Shown here one piece after another: positions 2,124 through 9,663 of a DNA stretch of 64,000 bases; the stretch's first letter is position 1; every line of letters begins with the position of its first letter. This stretch comes from Marispirochaeta aestuarii (GTDB lineage Bacteria > Spirochaetota > Spirochaetia > JC444 > Marispirochaetaceae), in assembly GCF_002087085.1 (NCBI RefSeq), contig NZ_MWQY01000004.1, positions 124,001-188,000 of the forward strand. Reading direction: 5' to 3'. The translations under genes were made by a program, and so were the position numbers. The notes under the pieces were generated by a model that did no database searches, had not been told where the DNA came from, and saw only the letters and a list, made by a program, of their open reading frames with translations.

Positions 2124-4298
2124 ATGATCACCGATTTTCTTACCCAGGACGAACGAGAAAAAGGAGTCCGGCTGCTTCTCTGGCACGCCCTCTTCAACGG
2201 GCTGGGTTACGGTTTTCTTGCAGAGACGATAATTTATCTGCTGGCCCTGCAGTTCAATCCCTCCAACACCCAGCTGGGTTTTATCTCGTCGGCTATTCAT
2301 ATTGCGGGACTCGTACTGCTTTTCGTCCCCCGGCTGACCAACGGCATGAACCTGCGAAAACTCTTTTTCTCCGCCTGGATGTTCCGCGGCGCGGTGAGCT
2401 CCTTTTACGTACTGCTGCTCTTTACCCGGGGGCAGACGGCGGTGGTCCTTATTCTTGGCATCTATGCCCTCTTCTGTATCTCCCGTATTGTCGGGGCCTC
2501 CATGGCCGAGCCGGTGCAGCAGATGGTGGCTTCCACGGAAACCCGGGGGCGCTTTATCGCCCAGATGTTCATCAGCAACCAGTCCGCCCGGCTGGTCAGC
2601 CAGCTCATCAGCTACCTCTTGACCTCCATCGCAATCATGAGCGAATTGAACAGTCTGCTTGTTCTGATAGGCCTTGGAGTAGTAACCAATACGATCTCGG
2701 CCCTTTACCTGCGCAGGATTCCCTACCGGGAAAAGAGCCAGTATCAGAAAGGGAGCAACCTCTACCGGGTACTCCTTCGGACGGTAAAAAACCGGGAGCA
2801 GTTACTGGTGATCTTTATCCGCTGTTTCAGCCTTTCCGCCGCGGTGCTCATCGGTTTTACCACCCCCTTCCTGCGGGTAGTGGTGGGCTACGCCCAGAAC
2901 ATGGTGTTTCTTTATTCCCTGGTAGGTACGGCGGGAATGATTGTAAGCGGCCTGTTCCTGCGGCCCATCGTGGACAATGTGGGGTCCAAGCCCCTTTTGA
3001 TGGCCTCCTTTACCGGTCAAGCGGCCATCTTTATTATCTGGGCCGGCCTCAAGGATGCACCCCTGGGACTTTTTCTGGGCCTGGGATTTTTTACCACCTT
3101 TCTGCAGGCCTCGGTTTTTCAGCTGGTCGCCCGGCTCGTGTATAACGTGATCCCCGAGGAGGACAAGATCAGCTTCATGTCCCTGCTGAACTTTATCACC
3201 GCCGTATTCTCCTTCCTGGCCGGTATTGCAGGAGGTCTCCTCATCGACCTGGCGGCAAAAATCAGCCTTCCCTTCGGCTCCGACTACAGTCTCACCTTTA
3301 CAGCAGGCTCAATATACTGCGCCATAGCCTTCCTGCTGGTATTCAGCCTGCGGGACCAGGGTAGCCTGGGTATGCGGGAAACCGCGAACATCATCTTCTC
3401 GCCCCGGAACTTCAAGACCTTCCTGGATATCTACACCTTCAACCTGACGGCCAATCCGGTAAAGCGGCAGAATATCCTTACCGCGCTGAACTTCTCTCCC
3501 ACACCTCAGGCGGAGCAGGAGCTGCGGCAGATCCTGAACAACCCGATTGCCCCGGAGAAGGACCAGATACTTATTTCCCTCTATACGAACCCCAGACCCC
3601 GGCTCCTGGGGCTCATAATCCGGGAAGCGGAGAACCCGGAATCCGCCCAGCGCTCCAGCGCCATCTTCGCCCTGGGGGCCTACCCGGGAGAAAAGAGCCG
3701 AAACGCCCTGCGCGGGCTCTATCAGTCGGAGGATCCCCGGGTATCCTGCGCCGCGGCCAAGTCCCTGGCCCGGATCGGAAACCCTGTTCATCCCGAAGAG
3801 CTTGAAGGTCGCCTGATCTCCGTCGACCTTCCCACCCGGGCGATGCAGGACCTGATGGTTGCCCTTTCAGTGGCGGGGGAACATGAGCGTTACCTCCGCT
3901 CCCTCTTTCAGCTCTGTCCGGCCTACCGGGGCGATTACCATCTGCAGAGCATCCTGGCCCTCGCCGCAGCCCTGGAGGATTATTCCCCCCGTCTCGACCT
4001 TATCTATTCCCGGGAGAACAACAGAAGCGGCGGCGGGCTGTCCATCATCATCGAAGAGACCCGCCCCTTCAAACCCTTTTTCGATGACCTCCGGACCATT
4101 CAGGAATACTATCGCAACGGTCGGCATGAAGAGCTCCGGGACTGGTGCTGCAGGGTCGTTTCCGACTACACCCTGGACGAGCATCCGGTGGCCCTCTCGA
4201 TGAAATCCGACTCGGGCCATCCCTCTTCTTCGCTGAGTCTTGGGCGCCTGTATTTCACCTTTCAGTTGATGAATCTTCTTCGTCGTCCCGGGAAGTAG
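2124..4298 (+). CDS. MFS transporter fused to a C-terminal HEAT-repeat domain
   Basis: A 724-residue protein. About residues 1-415 form a polytopic membrane domain with the spacing of a 12-helix major facilitator. From about residue 440 the sequence becomes soluble and helical, with HEAT-like repeats (for example S-A-I-F-A-L-G-A-Y-P and A-A-A-K-S-L-A-R-I-G) up to roughly residue 560, then further helical sequence. MFS proteins move small solutes by proton or sodium coupling; the substrate is unknown. The cytosolic HEAT part would be a protein-docking surface. It is much longer than ordinary MFS proteins (about 400-450 residues). The ATG at 2124 is preferred because a promoter lies just before it. 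Confidence 0.8.
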   Translation: MITDFLTQDEREKGVRLLLWHALFNGLGYGFLAETIIYLLALQFNPSNTQLGFISSAIHIAGLVLLFVPRLTNGMNLRKLFFSAWMFRGAVSSFYVLLLFTRGQTAVVLILGIYALFCISRIVGASMAEPVQQMVASTETRGRFIAQMFISNQSARLVSQLISYLLTSIAIMSELNSLLVLIGLGVVTNTISALYLRRIPYREKSQYQKGSNLYRVLLRTVKNREQLLVIFIRCFSLSAAVLIGFTTPFLRVVVGYAQNMVFLYSLVGTAGMIVSGLFLRPIVDNVGSKPLLMASFTGQAAIFIIWAGLKDAPLGLFLGLGFFTTFLQASVFQLVARLVYNVIPEEDKISFMSLLNFITAVFSFLAGIAGGLLIDLAAKISLPFGSDYSLTFTAGSIYCAIAFLLVFSLRDQGSLGMRETANIIFSPRNFKTFLDIYTFNLTANPVKRQNILTALNFSPTPQAEQELRQILNNPIAPEKDQILISLYTNPRPRLLGLIIREAENPESAQRSSAIFALGAYPGEKSRNALRGLYQSEDPRVSCAAAKSLARIGNPVHPEELEGRLISVDLPTRAMQDLMVALSVAGEHERYLRSLFQLCPAYRGDYHLQSILALAAALEDYSPRLDLIYSRENNRSGGGLSIIIEETRPFKPFFDDLRTIQEYYRNGRHEELRDWCCRVVSDYTLDEHPVALSMKSDSGHPSSSLSLGRLYFTFQLMNLLRRPGK

Positions 4299-4319
4299 TT
4301 TTTCCCTCTGATATATTGC

Positions 4320-4348
4320 TTGCCTCAAGGGGCCGGCCTTGGTACAAT
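4320..4348 (+). promoter_or_regulatory. Promoter of the gene at 4355, probably leaderless
   Basis: TTGCCT (4320-4325), 17 bases, TACAAT (4343-4348), six bases before the ATG at 4355. No Shine-Dalgarno site is present. Confidence 0.6.
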
Positions 4349-4354
4349 CCGGTC

Positions 4355-6202
4355 ATGAAAAGTCGGGTCAGGCCAGCCTACTACCTTGTTCTTGTTGTGT
4401 ACGCACTTATAATCGGTGGACTTCTGTATCGGGAATTCGGCCAGGCCAGACCTGTCAGCTATTCTCTGGGAGAAATAAGCATATCCGCCCGTCAGACCGC
4501 AGGAGTCCCGGGAAACATTCTTCCTGGACAGGGTGCAGGGTTCCGCTCCCTTACCCTGCGCTACCGCAGCTTTCAACTCTCCATCCCCGAAACGGGCCTT
4601 GCCGTTGAAGTCGATGAGGAGGGCACGGAAATTCCTGCCGCCGTGGCTGACATTGACCGTTCAAGCAGCGAGATTTCAATACGCCTGGTTTCCGGGATTG
4701 AACTCCGGATACGGGAGAACGAAGAGGAAAACAACAGTTACATCCTGAGCCTCGATTTTACAGCCGCCGATGCGGAGAAGCTGCGGGGCATTCGACTCCC
4801 CTGGAGAGGTTCGGAACCGCAGTTTCACAGCGGGCTGCCCATACTCATTGCCTCACCCCCCGGAACATCGGGAGGTACGGTACTGCTGCCTGCTTCGGCC
4901 CGGGTGAATGCGGAGTTCCTCTCCATTCCCCGGAGTGATTCCCTCCAGGAGATCCTGCTCTTCAACGCCCCCGAAGAGGGTTCCCTGATTGAAAGCTGGT
5001 TCCGAATACGGGGAGGTCTCGCCTCGAGAGAAGAAGCCGACCGTGCCCTGAAGGAGTTTTACAACCTCGCCTACAGAGGCTGGGAACGGGACCGCTGGAT
5101 TCCCGGGGCAGGGAGCTGGGAATACGTGGCGGACGCTCCGCCGGAGAGCAGAACTGCCACGGCACTCCTCATGGAATCCCTCTCCAGAGGCAGCTACTTC
5201 TCAACCAGGGAACGCCTTGCCGCGGCCAGTCCCCGGCTCATCGACCATACCAGCGCCCTCTTTCTCGGGTCCGTCGTATCTCCCTTCGAACAGTTCGGTT
5301 CATCCATGGAAGATTTCATGGCGGAAGTCCGGCAGGCGCTGAACAACGGAGACAGTTCGATATTTGACAAAGTCGACAGTCTGAACAGAATTATCCAGGC
5401 GGGAATCGGTTCCGGGGAAGGCATACAGGATGCCCTCTCCCAGCTGGCGGAAACAACGGTCCTTGCCGAACCATCCAGCCCGGCGGAACTGCTCAGGGCC
5501 ATCAGGGCCGCTGAGTTTCTGCTTGAATGGGAAGGGCCGGAACACTCGGGAATCCGCTATCTGATCCGGGAAGAGCTTCTGCCCGGACTCTGTACAACGA
5601 ATTACGGCTACGGCATACACTTCAACGGGACCTCCGACGCCCTGACCGGCGTTCTGGCGGGAAGACTGATGGCCGCAGGCAGTGACGACTTTTCCGCAGC
5701 CCTGGGATACACCCTTCTTGCATCCTTTACCGCCTCCGCCGGGGAGTTCTCCCGGACCCCCGCCGGGATTATACGCAGGGAGTTTTATTACCAGAACTCA
5801 CAGAAACTTCTGGAACCGGAAGCCCTGCCGCGGCTTCAACCCCTGGCGGGAGAACTGCCCTATCAGCCGCGGGCAATCGAACTGGGAACAGACGAAGGAT
5901 GGATGTGGACCACCGCCGCGGATGTGCGTTACCAGGACGGCGGTACAACGAGCATCTTGAGTTTTCGCTTTCCCCAGGGCGGAATACACCACTTTGCCCT
6001 CTACGGGGTAGAACCCTTCGACCAGATCCAGATGCACGGAATTCCCTGGAAGAGCGACCCGGAATTCCAGCGCTACAGCGACGGCTGGGTGTACAATCCC
6101 CGTACGAAAACCCTCTTCTTCAAGATACGGCACCGCTCCGAGAGGCAGGAGATACGGATCCTCCGAAATACCCCTGAAGCGGCTCCTCCGGCTAGGCCTT
6201 GA
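4355..6202 (+). CDS. Membrane-anchored protein of unknown function
   Basis: I do not recognise this 615-residue protein. Residues 7-25 form one hydrophobic N-terminal anchor; the rest is soluble and probably outside the cytoplasmic membrane. The first half is beta-rich with many acidic residues; the second half contains helical stretches and a late aromatic region (H-H-F-A-L-Y-G-V-E-P-F-D). The frame is open upstream to 4145, but that extension overlaps the previous gene, and the promoter just before 4355 fixes the start. Its stop codon overlaps the end of the convergent fusion gene by 11 bases. Confidence 0.7.
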   Translation: MKSRVRPAYYLVLVVYALIIGGLLYREFGQARPVSYSLGEISISARQTAGVPGNILPGQGAGFRSLTLRYRSFQLSIPETGLAVEVDEEGTEIPAAVADIDRSSSEISIRLVSGIELRIRENEEENNSYILSLDFTAADAEKLRGIRLPWRGSEPQFHSGLPILIASPPGTSGGTVLLPASARVNAEFLSIPRSDSLQEILLFNAPEEGSLIESWFRIRGGLASREEADRALKEFYNLAYRGWERDRWIPGAGSWEYVADAPPESRTATALLMESLSRGSYFSTRERLAAASPRLIDHTSALFLGSVVSPFEQFGSSMEDFMAEVRQALNNGDSSIFDKVDSLNRIIQAGIGSGEGIQDALSQLAETTVLAEPSSPAELLRAIRAAEFLLEWEGPEHSGIRYLIREELLPGLCTTNYGYGIHFNGTSDALTGVLAGRLMAAGSDDFSAALGYTLLASFTASAGEFSRTPAGIIRREFYYQNSQKLLEPEALPRLQPLAGELPYQPRAIELGTDEGWMWTTAADVRYQDGGTTSILSFRFPQGGIHHFALYGVEPFDQIQMHGIPWKSDPEFQRYSDGWVYNPRTKTLFFKIRHRSERQEIRILRNTPEAAPPARP

Positions 6203-9200
6203 TCCGCTTTAGTACACCCCCGGCAAAGGTGAAACCGCCTCCGAAGGCTGTAAGTCCGTAGTACTCTTCCCGGCGGGAACTATCCTCCAGGATCCTTTCA
6301 ATACAGACCGGGATTGTCGATGACGAGATATTTCCGATTCCATCGATAATGCTGTAAACCTTCTCCGGTTTTGCCCTGAGCTTCTGTCGTACAGCATCAA
6401 TTATCCGCTGGTTTGCCTGGTGGGGAACTACAAGATCGAGCTCATCGGGTCCGATTCCCGCCTCCCTGCAGGCGTCTTTAAGGATGTCCGCCATGGCGGT
6501 AACCGCCTTGCGAAAGACCTCCGGTCCTTCCATGAAAACCGGGTCCTTCAGGTCTGCAGGGATCCTCAGAAGTGATCCGTCTTCCCCACTGGCGGAGAGG
6601 ACCGGCCGCTTTATCTCCAGAACGCCCTTTTCCGACAGCTCATTTCCGCCGACTATCATGGTCGCCGTTGCACCGTCACCGAAAACCGGGGCTGTGGAGG
6701 GATCAGATGTATCCATACGGTCAGAAAGCACATCGGCGGTAACAAGCAGTACTCTGTGGCCGGGTTTCTGTGCCAGGTAGTCGTGGGCTATCTGCAGGCC
6801 GTAGACGTATCCGGAACAGGCGGCGTTTATGTCATAAGCCGGACAGGTACAGTCGGCATTGTACCTGCGGTTCAGTTCATACTGCACCATGGTGGCCAGG
6901 GCCGGAGTGTTCATGACGGGGGTCACGGTGGAACAGATCAGAAGGTCCACCTCCTCGATTCCCATACCCAGATCATCCAGCAGCCGGCTTGCGGCGTCCA
7001 CCGACAGGCTCAGGGCATTCTCCCCCTCCCCGATCCAGTGGCGCTCCCTGATTCCGGTGCGTCGCACTATGTCGTCGGGACTCCAGGTGGGACAGAGCCG
7101 GGAGATTTCTTCGTTGCTCACAACCCGGGAACCCAGGACCCCCCGGACCGCCGTAATGGCCGCCGTTCCCTCCCGGGAAGGTCCGGAAAAGCCGGAAGCT
7201 CCGGTCTTGAGAGACGTGATAACCGGGATTCCAGGTTCCTCCCGGGTAATAGGTTTGATCCTCACTGCTCCCTTTTCCAGGCGGATCTTTGCAATCCCGT
7301 CACCCACATTGGCGGAGTCCCCCTCGGCAACATCGAGGGAGCTCACGACACCGGAAACAGGGCTGGACAGGGTTACCATGGCCTTATCGGCTTCGAGTTC
7401 CGCAATCTCCTGACCTTCGCTGATGGAATCCCCCTCCGCCACGAGCCATTCGATAACCGTTACAACCTCATCGGAAGGACTCGATCCGACGGCTTCCAGG
7501 GTATAGAGTTCTCCGCCGGCCTCTTCCGCCTTGCGCCAGCTGATACTGCCCTCCAGCAGTTCAACGGCGGTCTCCAGTACCCGCTTGTACGACGGCAGGA
7601 CCTCAAGCTGGTTGGCAAAATTGCAGGGAACGTAGGTATCTCCCCGGGTTACCCTCCGCAGCCGGATCGGACGACGGCTTGCCTCCGCCAGGGTACTCAG
7701 AATCTCCGACCCCATACCGGCGGTGTGGGTGTCTTCATGAACGACAATCAGCCGGCCGGTCTTTTCCGCCGAGGAGATGAGCATATCCCTGTCCCAGGGG
7801 GCCAGAGTACGCAGATCGATAACCTCCGCTTCCGCTCCGGCCTCCGCCAAGGCTGCCGCCGCCTTCATGCAGTGGACCACGGTGTTTCCCCATCCCAAGA
7901 GGGTGATGTCCCTGCCCTCCTTGAGGAGCCGGGCTTTACCGGGAGAGGCCAGCAGCCTGGCTGCCGGTCTGGTCGTGGCAAAATCCCTGCTGTTCAGCAG
8001 GTTCTTGGGATAGAAAAAGAGGGTCGGTCTCCCGGATTCGAAGGCGGAGTTCAGAAGGGCCGCTGCATCATCCGCCCGGGAGGGCATAAAGACATCCACC
8101 CCCGGGGTATGGGCGGCTATTCCGTCCATGGACTGGGCGTGAAAGGGTCCCAGGCCCGGCTTGTAGCCCCCGCAGGATATCATCACGATGACCGGGGCCT
8201 GCCAGCCGCCGTCGGTACGCCAATACATGCTTCCCAGCTCGGAGATTATCTGATTAAAGGCTATGGGCAGAAAATCGGCGAACTGCAGAAAGGCCACGGG
8301 ACGCCTTCCCGCCAGGGCCTCGCCGCCGGCAATCCCCACAATGGAGGCCTCAGCCAGGGGAGAATTGCAGACCCGGCCGGGGAAGAGGTCCGTAAGACCC
8401 CGGGTCACCCCGAAGACGTCCCCCTTGGGATCTTCGATGTCCTCTCCGAACAGATAGACCCGTTCGTCGGCCTTCATGCGGGCAGTCAGGACATCCCGCA
8501 GGGTTTCAATCATGGTCCTGGGCTCACCTTCGCTCTCCGACGGCTGACTCTCGTCGACCTCGAGCAGGTGCCGGGGATAGGGTTTTACCGCATCGTGGAC
8601 GGCCTCGGGTTCGGGACCCAGCTGACTCTCCCGGGCGAGGTTCTCCAGCTCCGTTCTGCGGGAGGCTTCAGCCTCCTCCAGTTCCTTCTCGTCCATACCG
8701 GATGAAAGAAGCACATCCCGCAGCTTCCGCACCGGATCCCCGGTCAGCCGTGCCCGGGAAATCTCCTCTTCGCTGCGATAGACCCGCTGGTCGTCGGCGT
8801 TGGTGTGGTTCGAAAGCCGTTCGACCTCCATAATCAGGATTGCCGGTCTCCTGGATTCCCGCATTTCCGCGACGGTCTCCCCAAAAACCTCGTCCGCCGT
8901 CAGCGGGTCCCGGCCGTCGAAACGGCGGATCGGTATACCGTAAAACTCTTCGGCCGGTCCGTCGGGAAGATTGTAGAAGGTCTTTCCCCGTGTGCGGGTG
9001 GATATGGCAAATCCGTTATCCTGAACAAGAAAAAGGACCGGAAGGGTCTCCCGAACCGCCTGGGCCACAGCTTCAAGAACCTCTCCCTGCTGGCTCATGC
9101 CGTCTCCCAGGGAACAAAGGACCACAGGAGCTCCGGGCCTGTCCTTTACGGCCCGGGCGACACCCGCCGCCTGGAGTCCCGAGTTTCCCACGGGTCCCAC

Positions 9201-9545
9201 CAGACTGAGGATATTCAGTGAGGGATCACTCATGTGGGCGTTCATCTGCCTGCCCCGGGAGTGTGAAGCGTCCTTGTTGAAGAGAGAATGAAAGAACATT
9301 ACCGGGGCCATTCCCCGGGCGAGCATCATCGCTTTGTCACGGTAGTGGCAGTGGAGCCAGTCCTCCGGCTTCAGATACTGAGCCAGGGCCGCCCCGGCTT
9401 CGTGCCCTCCCCCGGAGACGTGAAAAAAGGCCTCTCCCCGGTGAGTGTAGCTCTCTTCTATCCGGTCAATTTCCCGGGAAGAGAACATATTCATATAGAG
9501 TTTGAACAGATACTCCTGCCGCTGGGCGCTTATATCGGTCTTCAT
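6192..9545 (-). CDS. E1alpha-E1beta-lipoyl-KASIII fusion (2-oxoacid dehydrogenase linked to ketoacyl synthase)
   Basis: A 1117-residue single chain with four modules. Residues 1-330 are a thiamine-diphosphate E1 alpha subunit (G-D-G at 147-149, D-N-G at 176-178). Residues 342-666 are an E1 beta subunit (P-L-A-E-A-S-I-V-G with Glu399). Residues 682-757 are a lipoyl domain with Lys721 in E-A-D-K-A as the lipoylation site. Residues 795-1117 are a ketoacyl synthase III with Cys910 (A-A-C-S-G), His1042 (P-H-Q-A-N) and Asn1072 (G-N-I-S-S-S). No E2 acyltransferase or E3 module is present. I infer that it decarboxylates a 2-oxoacid, loads the acyl group on its own lipoyl arm and uses it to prime a malonyl condensation, perhaps for branched fatty acids. 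The start at 9545 has GGAGGAG eight bases upstream; an ATG at 9569 has none. Confidence 0.93.
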   Translation of the reverse strand: MKTDISAQRQEYLFKLYMNMFSSREIDRIEESYTHRGEAFFHVSGGGHEAGAALAQYLKPEDWLHCHYRDKAMMLARGMAPVMFFHSLFNKDASHSRGRQMNAHMSDPSLNILSLVGPVGNSGLQAAGVARAVKDRPGAPVVLCSLGDGMSQQGEVLEAVAQAVRETLPVLFLVQDNGFAISTRTRGKTFYNLPDGPAEEFYGIPIRRFDGRDPLTADEVFGETVAEMRESRRPAILIMEVERLSNHTNADDQRVYRSEEEISRARLTGDPVRKLRDVLLSSGMDEKELEEAEASRRTELENLARESQLGPEPEAVHDAVKPYPRHLLEVDESQPSESEGEPRTMIETLRDVLTARMKADERVYLFGEDIEDPKGDVFGVTRGLTDLFPGRVCNSPLAEASIVGIAGGEALAGRRPVAFLQFADFLPIAFNQIISELGSMYWRTDGGWQAPVIVMISCGGYKPGLGPFHAQSMDGIAAHTPGVDVFMPSRADDAAALLNSAFESGRPTLFFYPKNLLNSRDFATTRPAARLLASPGKARLLKEGRDITLLGWGNTVVHCMKAAAALAEAGAEAEVIDLRTLAPWDRDMLISSAEKTGRLIVVHEDTHTAGMGSEILSTLAEASRRPIRLRRVTRGDTYVPCNFANQLEVLPSYKRVLETAVELLEGSISWRKAEEAGGELYTLEAVGSSPSDEVVTVIEWLVAEGDSISEGQEIAELEADKAMVTLSSPVSGVVSSLDVAEGDSANVGDGIAKIRLEKGAVRIKPITREEPGIPVITSLKTGASGFSGPSREGTAAITAVRGVLGSRVVSNEEISRLCPTWSPDDIVRRTGIRERHWIGEGENALSLSVDAASRLLDDLGMGIEEVDLLICSTVTPVMNTPALATMVQYELNRRYNADCTCPAYDINAACSGYVYGLQIAHDYLAQKPGHRVLLVTADVLSDRMDTSDPSTAPVFGDGATATMIVGGNELSEKGVLEIKRPVLSASGEDGSLLRIPADLKDPVFMEGPEVFRKAVTAMADILKDACREAGIGPDELDLVVPHQANQRIIDAVRQKLRAKPEKVYSIIDGIGNISSSTIPVCIERILEDSSRREEYYGLTAFGGGFTFAGGVLKRIKA

Positions 9546-9663
9546 AGTTAAAAACTCCTCCATTCTCATGTCGGCCGCGGACCGACTGAAGAATTCGGAA
9601 CAGGTTACCAGATCTTTAGATTAATGAAAACACTCCCGGTACGGCCCTTCCCGAAGACCAAAC

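Follow-up and report, generated by a model that had tools for sequence, protein, structure and literature searches.

How does a 2-oxoacid dehydrogenase dispose of its acyl group when a condensing enzyme sits where the transferase should be? The question is raised by a single gene of the spirochaete Marispirochaeta aestuarii, on the minus strand of a 64,000-nucleotide stretch of contig NZ_MWQY01000004.1 (positions 124,001 to 188,000; hereafter the window, whose numbering is used for this gene). Its product joins both halves of a dehydrogenase E1 component (E1alpha and E1beta), a lipoyl domain and a 3-oxoacyl-acyl carrier protein (ACP) synthase III (KASIII, the FabH type) in one chain. Textbook 2-oxoacid dehydrogenases end in an E2 acyltransferase and coenzyme A (CoA), and textbook initiation of fatty acid synthesis uses FabH and acyl-CoA; the answer that best explains the available data, with a probability of about 0.7, is that the fusion would dispense with both CoA steps.

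According to this model, the fusion would be a self-contained initiation enzyme that starts fatty acid (3-oxoacyl-ACP) synthesis from a 2-oxoacid: (i) the E1 halves would bind thiamine diphosphate (ThDP), oxidatively decarboxylate the 2-oxoacid and reductively acylate the lipoyl group on Lys721; (ii) the S-acyl group would then travel on the lipoyl arm to the adjoining KASIII, where Cys910 would accept it directly; (iii) KASIII would condense it with malonyl-ACP, using His1042, Asn1072 and the docking residue Arg1047; and (iv) the dihydrolipoyl arm would be reoxidized by a housekeeping dihydrolipoamide dehydrogenase (E3) encoded elsewhere. KASIII would stand in for the E2 acyltransferase, no free acyl-CoA would be formed, and a branched-chain 2-oxoacid, the likely substrate, would yield iso and anteiso fatty acids. 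E1 is an alpha2beta2 assembly and KASIII a dimer, while E2 cores are trimers or larger; since E1 and KASIII are both two-fold, one homodimer would suffice and would hold two complete module sets.

Four modules in one chain

The gene and its parts are as follows (residue numbers are those of the protein; fractions refer to full-length homologues).

6192..9545, minus: single gene for the E1alpha-E1beta-lipoyl-KASIII fusion, 1117 aa (ATG at 9545, stop ends at 6192)
8607..9491, minus: E1alpha (PF00676, E1_dh, aa 19-313; Pfam)
9015..9107, minus: ThDP-binding motif GDG(147-149)...N177, seen in the sequence and kept in 63/63 or nearly
7602..8516, minus: E1beta (Transket_pyr, aa 344-518, and Transketolase_C, aa 536-648; Pfam), with Glu399 and His469 invariant
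7284..7466, minus: lipoyl domain (PF00364, Biotin_lipoyl, aa 694-754; Pfam) with the motif ELEADKA
7383..7385, minus: codon of Lys721, the predicted lipoylation site (Lys in 63/63)
7164..7283, minus: linker, aa 755-794, a conserved motif followed by a variable disordered stretch
7218-7256, minus: linker motif KPxTxExPGxP(I/V)I, aa 764-776, conserved within the otherwise variable linker
6207..7163, minus: KASIII domain (aa 795-1113; Pfam, PRK09352, structure superposition)
7071..7073, minus: Asp825, equivalent of FabH Trp32 (CoA adenine stacking); Asp or Glu in 60/63
6816..6818, minus: catalytic Cys910, acting with His1042 and Asn1072 (63/63)
6699..6701, minus: Pro949, equivalent of FabH Arg151 (CoA adenine stacking); Arg in 0/63
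9555..9561, minus: Shine-Dalgarno sequence GGAGGAG, 9 nt ahead of the ATG at 9545

The initial annotation had read four modules in one 1117-residue frame, without E2 or E3. The modules are borne out by Pfam, whose matches all lie far above their cut-offs (ACP_syn_III at aa 904-967, its C-terminal domain at 1026-1113), and by NCBIfam PRK09352 (KASIII), above its cut-off at aa 794-1113; the minus strand is added here. The frame is free of internal stops. Pfam finds neither the E2 catalytic domain (2-oxoacid_dh, PF00198) nor the E3_binding domain in the protein. The second half of that reading holds for the gene; it fails for the genome, which encodes two E3s and three canonical E2s that each lie next to an E1 of their own (here and below, statements on genome content rest on sequence searches of genomes). 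The lipoyl domain is nearest to those of E2s, and the E1 histidines H247 and H469 are conserved among homologues. The modules of an AlphaFold2 model (mean predicted local distance difference test score, pLDDT, 86.9) superpose in Foldseek on FabH (template modelling score, TM, 0.90 by target) and on the Thermus branched-chain E1beta (TM 0.91). The linkers of the lipoyl arm measure about 33 residues and at least 40.

Is this architecture real? The proposed database search finds it at more than 60 loci, as full-length homologues 42-89% identical to the query, including loci on complete chromosomes. Glu399, Lys721, Cys910, His1042 and Asn1072, all at the positions first assigned to them, are identical in 63/63; all six Pfam domains are present, and PF00198 and PF02817 (the peripheral subunit-binding domain, PSBD) absent, in 32/32 members scanned singly. 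Against an 89%-identical orthologue, the ratio of nonsynonymous to synonymous substitution rates (dN/dS) is 0.08, 0.04, 0.02 and 0.07 for the four modules and higher only in the linker (0.135). The low ratios and the retention of domains and catalytic residues across homologues mean that all four modules are maintained, under purifying selection. Chance, a frameshift or a chimeric assembly was considered and rejected: the architecture recurs at those loci and dN/dS is low.

A condensing enzyme in place of the transferase

Where does the fusion come from? Two single-chain proteins, from a Spirochaetota genome (L129:1647-4835, G257) and a Blastopirellula metagenome-assembled genome (MAG; L130:1799-4903, G427), have the same chassis and order, E1alpha-E1beta-lipoyl, but end in the PF00198 catalytic domain where the fusion has KASIII, a layout that apparently has no name so far. 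The E1beta tree places the fusion family as sister to the Spirochaetota chain (support 99/96; 48% identity in E1beta), and the Blastopirellula chain (41%) and genes for joined E1alpha and E1beta (E1ab) of Streptomyces (about 40%) branch next (100/100). Because these nearest single-chain relatives carry the E2 catalytic domain, KASIII occupies its place in the fusion.

The Streptomyces genes lie in plasmid clusters (L124:9965-22259, L125:9881-21887), one of them amid streptogramin-like genes, directly ahead of a hybrid synthase that starts with lipoyl, E2 catalytic, ACP and ketosynthase (KS) domains; the pair is a possible module for direct loading from lipoate to ACP. The virginiamycin M scheme shows a branched-chain 2-oxoacid dehydrogenase (BCDH) element (PMC10006238), and pristinamycin II is started from an isobutyryl unit (PMC6963833). 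Such BCDH-type loading of a polyketide synthase resembles the fusion in its E1ab, which comes from the same lineage and supplies the lipoyl domain that opens an acyl-carrier assembly line, but differs in that an E2 catalytic domain and ACP follow the lipoyl domain, the KS is of type I and E1 is a separate gene. Together with the E1beta tree, these clusters place the chassis in a lineage that delivers lipoate-borne acyl groups into assembly lines.

Can the fused KASIII still use CoA? In E. coli-type FabH, the CoA adenine is sandwiched by Trp32 and Arg151, as described for the Yersinia enzyme (PMC4606726). When the fused domains are aligned with E. coli FabH and stand-alone FabHs from similar genomes, this pair is found in 33/35 stand-alone enzymes (Trp32 in 34/35, Arg151 in 34/35) versus 0/63 fusions; the stand-alone FabH of M. 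aestuarii retains it. Position 151 is mostly Pro or Phe in the fusions and never Arg, and position 32 is Asp or Glu in 60 of the 63; given this acidic residue, the adenine site has not merely decayed. The Cys-His-Asn triad (FabH Cys112/His244/Asn274) and the ACP-docking Arg249 (Arg1047) are present in every fusion, and Arg829, the equivalent of the pantetheine-contacting Arg36, in 54/63. Loss of the adenine pair with retention of the triad and the docking Arg is what one would expect if the primer no longer comes as acyl-CoA and malonyl-ACP is still used. At the equivalent of FabH Phe87, which limits the acyl pocket, all 63 fusions have Thr or Ser, suggesting a roomier pocket. A separate observation concerns the Blastopirellula genome, which encodes a very divergent second KASIII-like protein (L138; end branch 2.2) with Leu replacing Trp32.

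A second architecture points the same way. In five spirochaetes (L093-L096, L131), an E1ab gene of the canonical E1 lineage is followed by a gene of 499-534 aa for a lipoyl-PSBD-KASIII protein:

L093:5760-7259, lipoyl-PSBD-KASIII gene next to E1ab
L094:1270-2775, the same, PSBD clear
L095:7125-8666, the same
L096:7278-8819, the same
L131:5043-6644, the same, PSBD clear

By its layout, this protein would be an E2 whose catalytic domain is a KASIII. One carrier genome (G012, 96% complete) encodes LipA and E3, and no PF00198 match was found in it. The two-gene system shares with the fusion the logic of KASIII for the E2 catalytic domain, but has another E1 lineage, keeps the PSBD and carries a KASIII of a separate clade with Tyr and Arg at the adenine positions. 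The KASIII tree is unrooted and does not by itself show whether the two lipoyl-coupled clades are independent; two separate replacements are supported because the E1 tree shows two E1 lineages. The loss of the adenine pair, the position of KASIII and this second presumptive E2 lend support to the hand-off from lipoate to KASIII, without E2 or CoA, that the initial annotation had put forward. On balance, we favour the broader proposition that a widespread, CoA-independent start of fatty acid synthesis, from protein-bound lipoamide to a ketoacyl synthase cysteine, arose at least two times, with KASIII replacing E2 each time.

Fatty acids, CoA and the rival readings

If the fusion makes a 3-oxoacyl-ACP, what is it for? 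Polyketide or alkyl-ketone synthesis had been suggested beside fatty acid priming, and a dedicated compound of this kind, or a signalling lipid, made from a 2-oxoacid in place of membrane fatty acid would suit both the patchy distribution over phyla and the presence of a stand-alone FabH. The gene, however, stands alone, without a biosynthetic cluster, even in small genomes of 1.5-1.7 Mb. Its neighbours are varying housekeeping genes (aconitase, serS, NAD synthetase and glnA, for example), unrelated ones in other species, and comparing them across loci reveals no functional link. With the gene alone beside housekeeping genes and the ACP-docking Arg kept, fatty acid priming is favoured and the dedicated compound is unlikely. 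PlsC adjoins the fusion in a few Neisseriales-type loci and a Glu/Leu-dehydrogenase-like gene in one (L057), numbers too small to use.

The distribution is widespread but patchy. Carriers belong to Spirochaetota, Planctomycetota, Neisseriales/Burkholderiales and other groups; a contig scan gives 61 loci, including Ca. Marispirochaeta associata (75%), the complete chromosome of Planctomycetales bacterium 10988 and MAGs labelled Neisseriaceae, Burkholderiales, Verrucomicrobia, Lentisphaerales and others (the labels Xenococcus and Accumulibacter may be binning errors). Among 393 evenly sampled Spirochaetota genomes, about 15 carry the fusion; a plasmid search found no full-length copy. Nearly all of the fused-gene genomes that were examined also encode a stand-alone FabH; thus, the fusion adds a second initiation route and the first is not replaced.

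Could the fusion only co-locate its enzymes, with a separate E2 making acyl-CoA for an ordinary, CoA-requiring FabH? The usual FabH donor is acyl-CoA, three canonical E2s are at hand and might conceivably serve in trans, and the pantetheine contact Arg829 is largely kept. Yet pantetheine contacts are needed for malonyl-ACP regardless, each E2 of the host adjoins its own E1, PSBD and E2 catalytic domain are missing from every member scanned, related chains have their own E2 catalytic domain exactly at the place of KASIII, and no fusion keeps the adenine-stacking pair; such channelling seems rather improbable. That KASIII is an acyltransferase only, moving the acyl group from lipoate to ACP or another nucleophile without malonyl condensation as KASIII acyltransferases of polyketide pathways do, would accord with the condensation-free transfers of the lipoyl-E2-ACP loading modules fed by the same E1 lineage in Streptomyces, but is very unlikely: KASIII acyltransferases such as CerJ are known for Asp at the triad Asn position (Cys-His-Asp), all fusions have Asn1072 and with it a triad of the decarboxylating-condensation type, and no dedicated ACP or biosynthetic cluster adjoins the gene.

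Several points also weigh against direct, CoA-independent transfer into fatty acids. All fusions form one clade in the KASIII tree, so the CoA pair may have been lost just once; what counts is that the loss was later kept and never reversed, with the acidic residue maintained. In the two-gene lineage, Arg151 is retained and Tyr takes the place of Trp32, so CoA binding may persist in those enzymes. Comparison of neighbours across species showed no conserved lipid or ACP gene adjoining the fusion, and Pfam finds no PSBD and hence no recognised route for E3 to the lipoyl arm. Finally, Phe87 in the partner FabH is as frequent in genomes with the fusion as in those without (15/21 versus 7/10, p=1.0).

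How, then, would the arm be reoxidized? The fusion almost certainly needs E3 in trans. An E3 (TIGR01350) scores above cut-off in 14/14 genomes checked, none adjoining the fusion gene, and the lipoate synthase LipA is present in 18/18 fused-gene genomes of a 60-relative set. The conserved linker motif at aa 764-776 is a candidate docking segment for E3.

The substrate is probably a branched-chain 2-oxoacid. The best match of E1alpha in the Protein Data Bank (PDB) is the Thermus branched-chain E1alpha (120 bits), followed by human branched-chain E1 (95 bits) and pyruvate E1 (69-78), with Pseudomonas branched-chain E1 at only 49; E1beta also scores best against the Thermus enzyme. The better match of E1alpha to the Thermus and human branched-chain enzymes, together with the change from Phe87 to Thr or Ser, hints at branched primers. 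In the small Neisseriales-type genomes with the fusion, the search found no other branched-chain-type E1, only transketolase/DXS-like matches. Beside the fusion in the MAG labelled Xenococcus, a Glu/Leu/Val-dehydrogenase-like gene transcribed divergently from it (L057:1415-2620) would supply a branched 2-oxoacid.

Known systems and gene surroundings

Among the closest known systems is the Bacillus-type branched-chain complex with a separate FabH, in which the chemistry of E1, lipoyl arm and KASIII is the same; unlike the fusion, which is one polypeptide without E2 acyltransferase, PSBD or CoA-adenine site, it goes via acyl-CoA. OdhA, the "two-in-one" E1-E2 2-oxoglutarate dehydrogenase of actinobacteria (PMC10415282), resembles the fusion in joining E1 to an acyl-accepting enzyme, but the fused transferase is an E2 that passes the acyl group to CoA and its E1 is of the SucA type. 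Its chain is not known to include a lipoyl domain. OdhA is the only close published item found: the open-access literature, with most subscription journals outside its scope, yielded no earlier description of the fusion or of KASIII with lipoyl domains, and nothing relevant on branched fatty acids of spirochaetes.

If the model is right, a lipoate-joined enzyme would represent a third type of hand-off that does not depend on the CoA pool. It would account for branched primers in bacteria that lack a branched-chain dehydrogenase complex of their own and offer a compact module for engineered branched fatty acid production. The invariant loss of the CoA-adenine pair would also make it possible to recognise, from sequence, condensing enzymes fed by lipoate in genomes that lack annotation.

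In one complete spirochaete genome of 3.78 Mb (G049), the fusion gene is broken into three overlapping frames (L132:2326-5815), and another copy, partial and degenerate, is present at a separate site of the chromosome (L133:2255-4393); frameshifts, sequencing errors or a decaying gene are the alternatives. In the window, the fusion gene is convergent with the gene at 4145..6202 and divergent from an NAD synthetase gene. At 2124-4298, a 724-aa open reading frame combines an MFS-like membrane transporter with an apparent C-terminal extension of HEAT-like repeats, an unusual combination.

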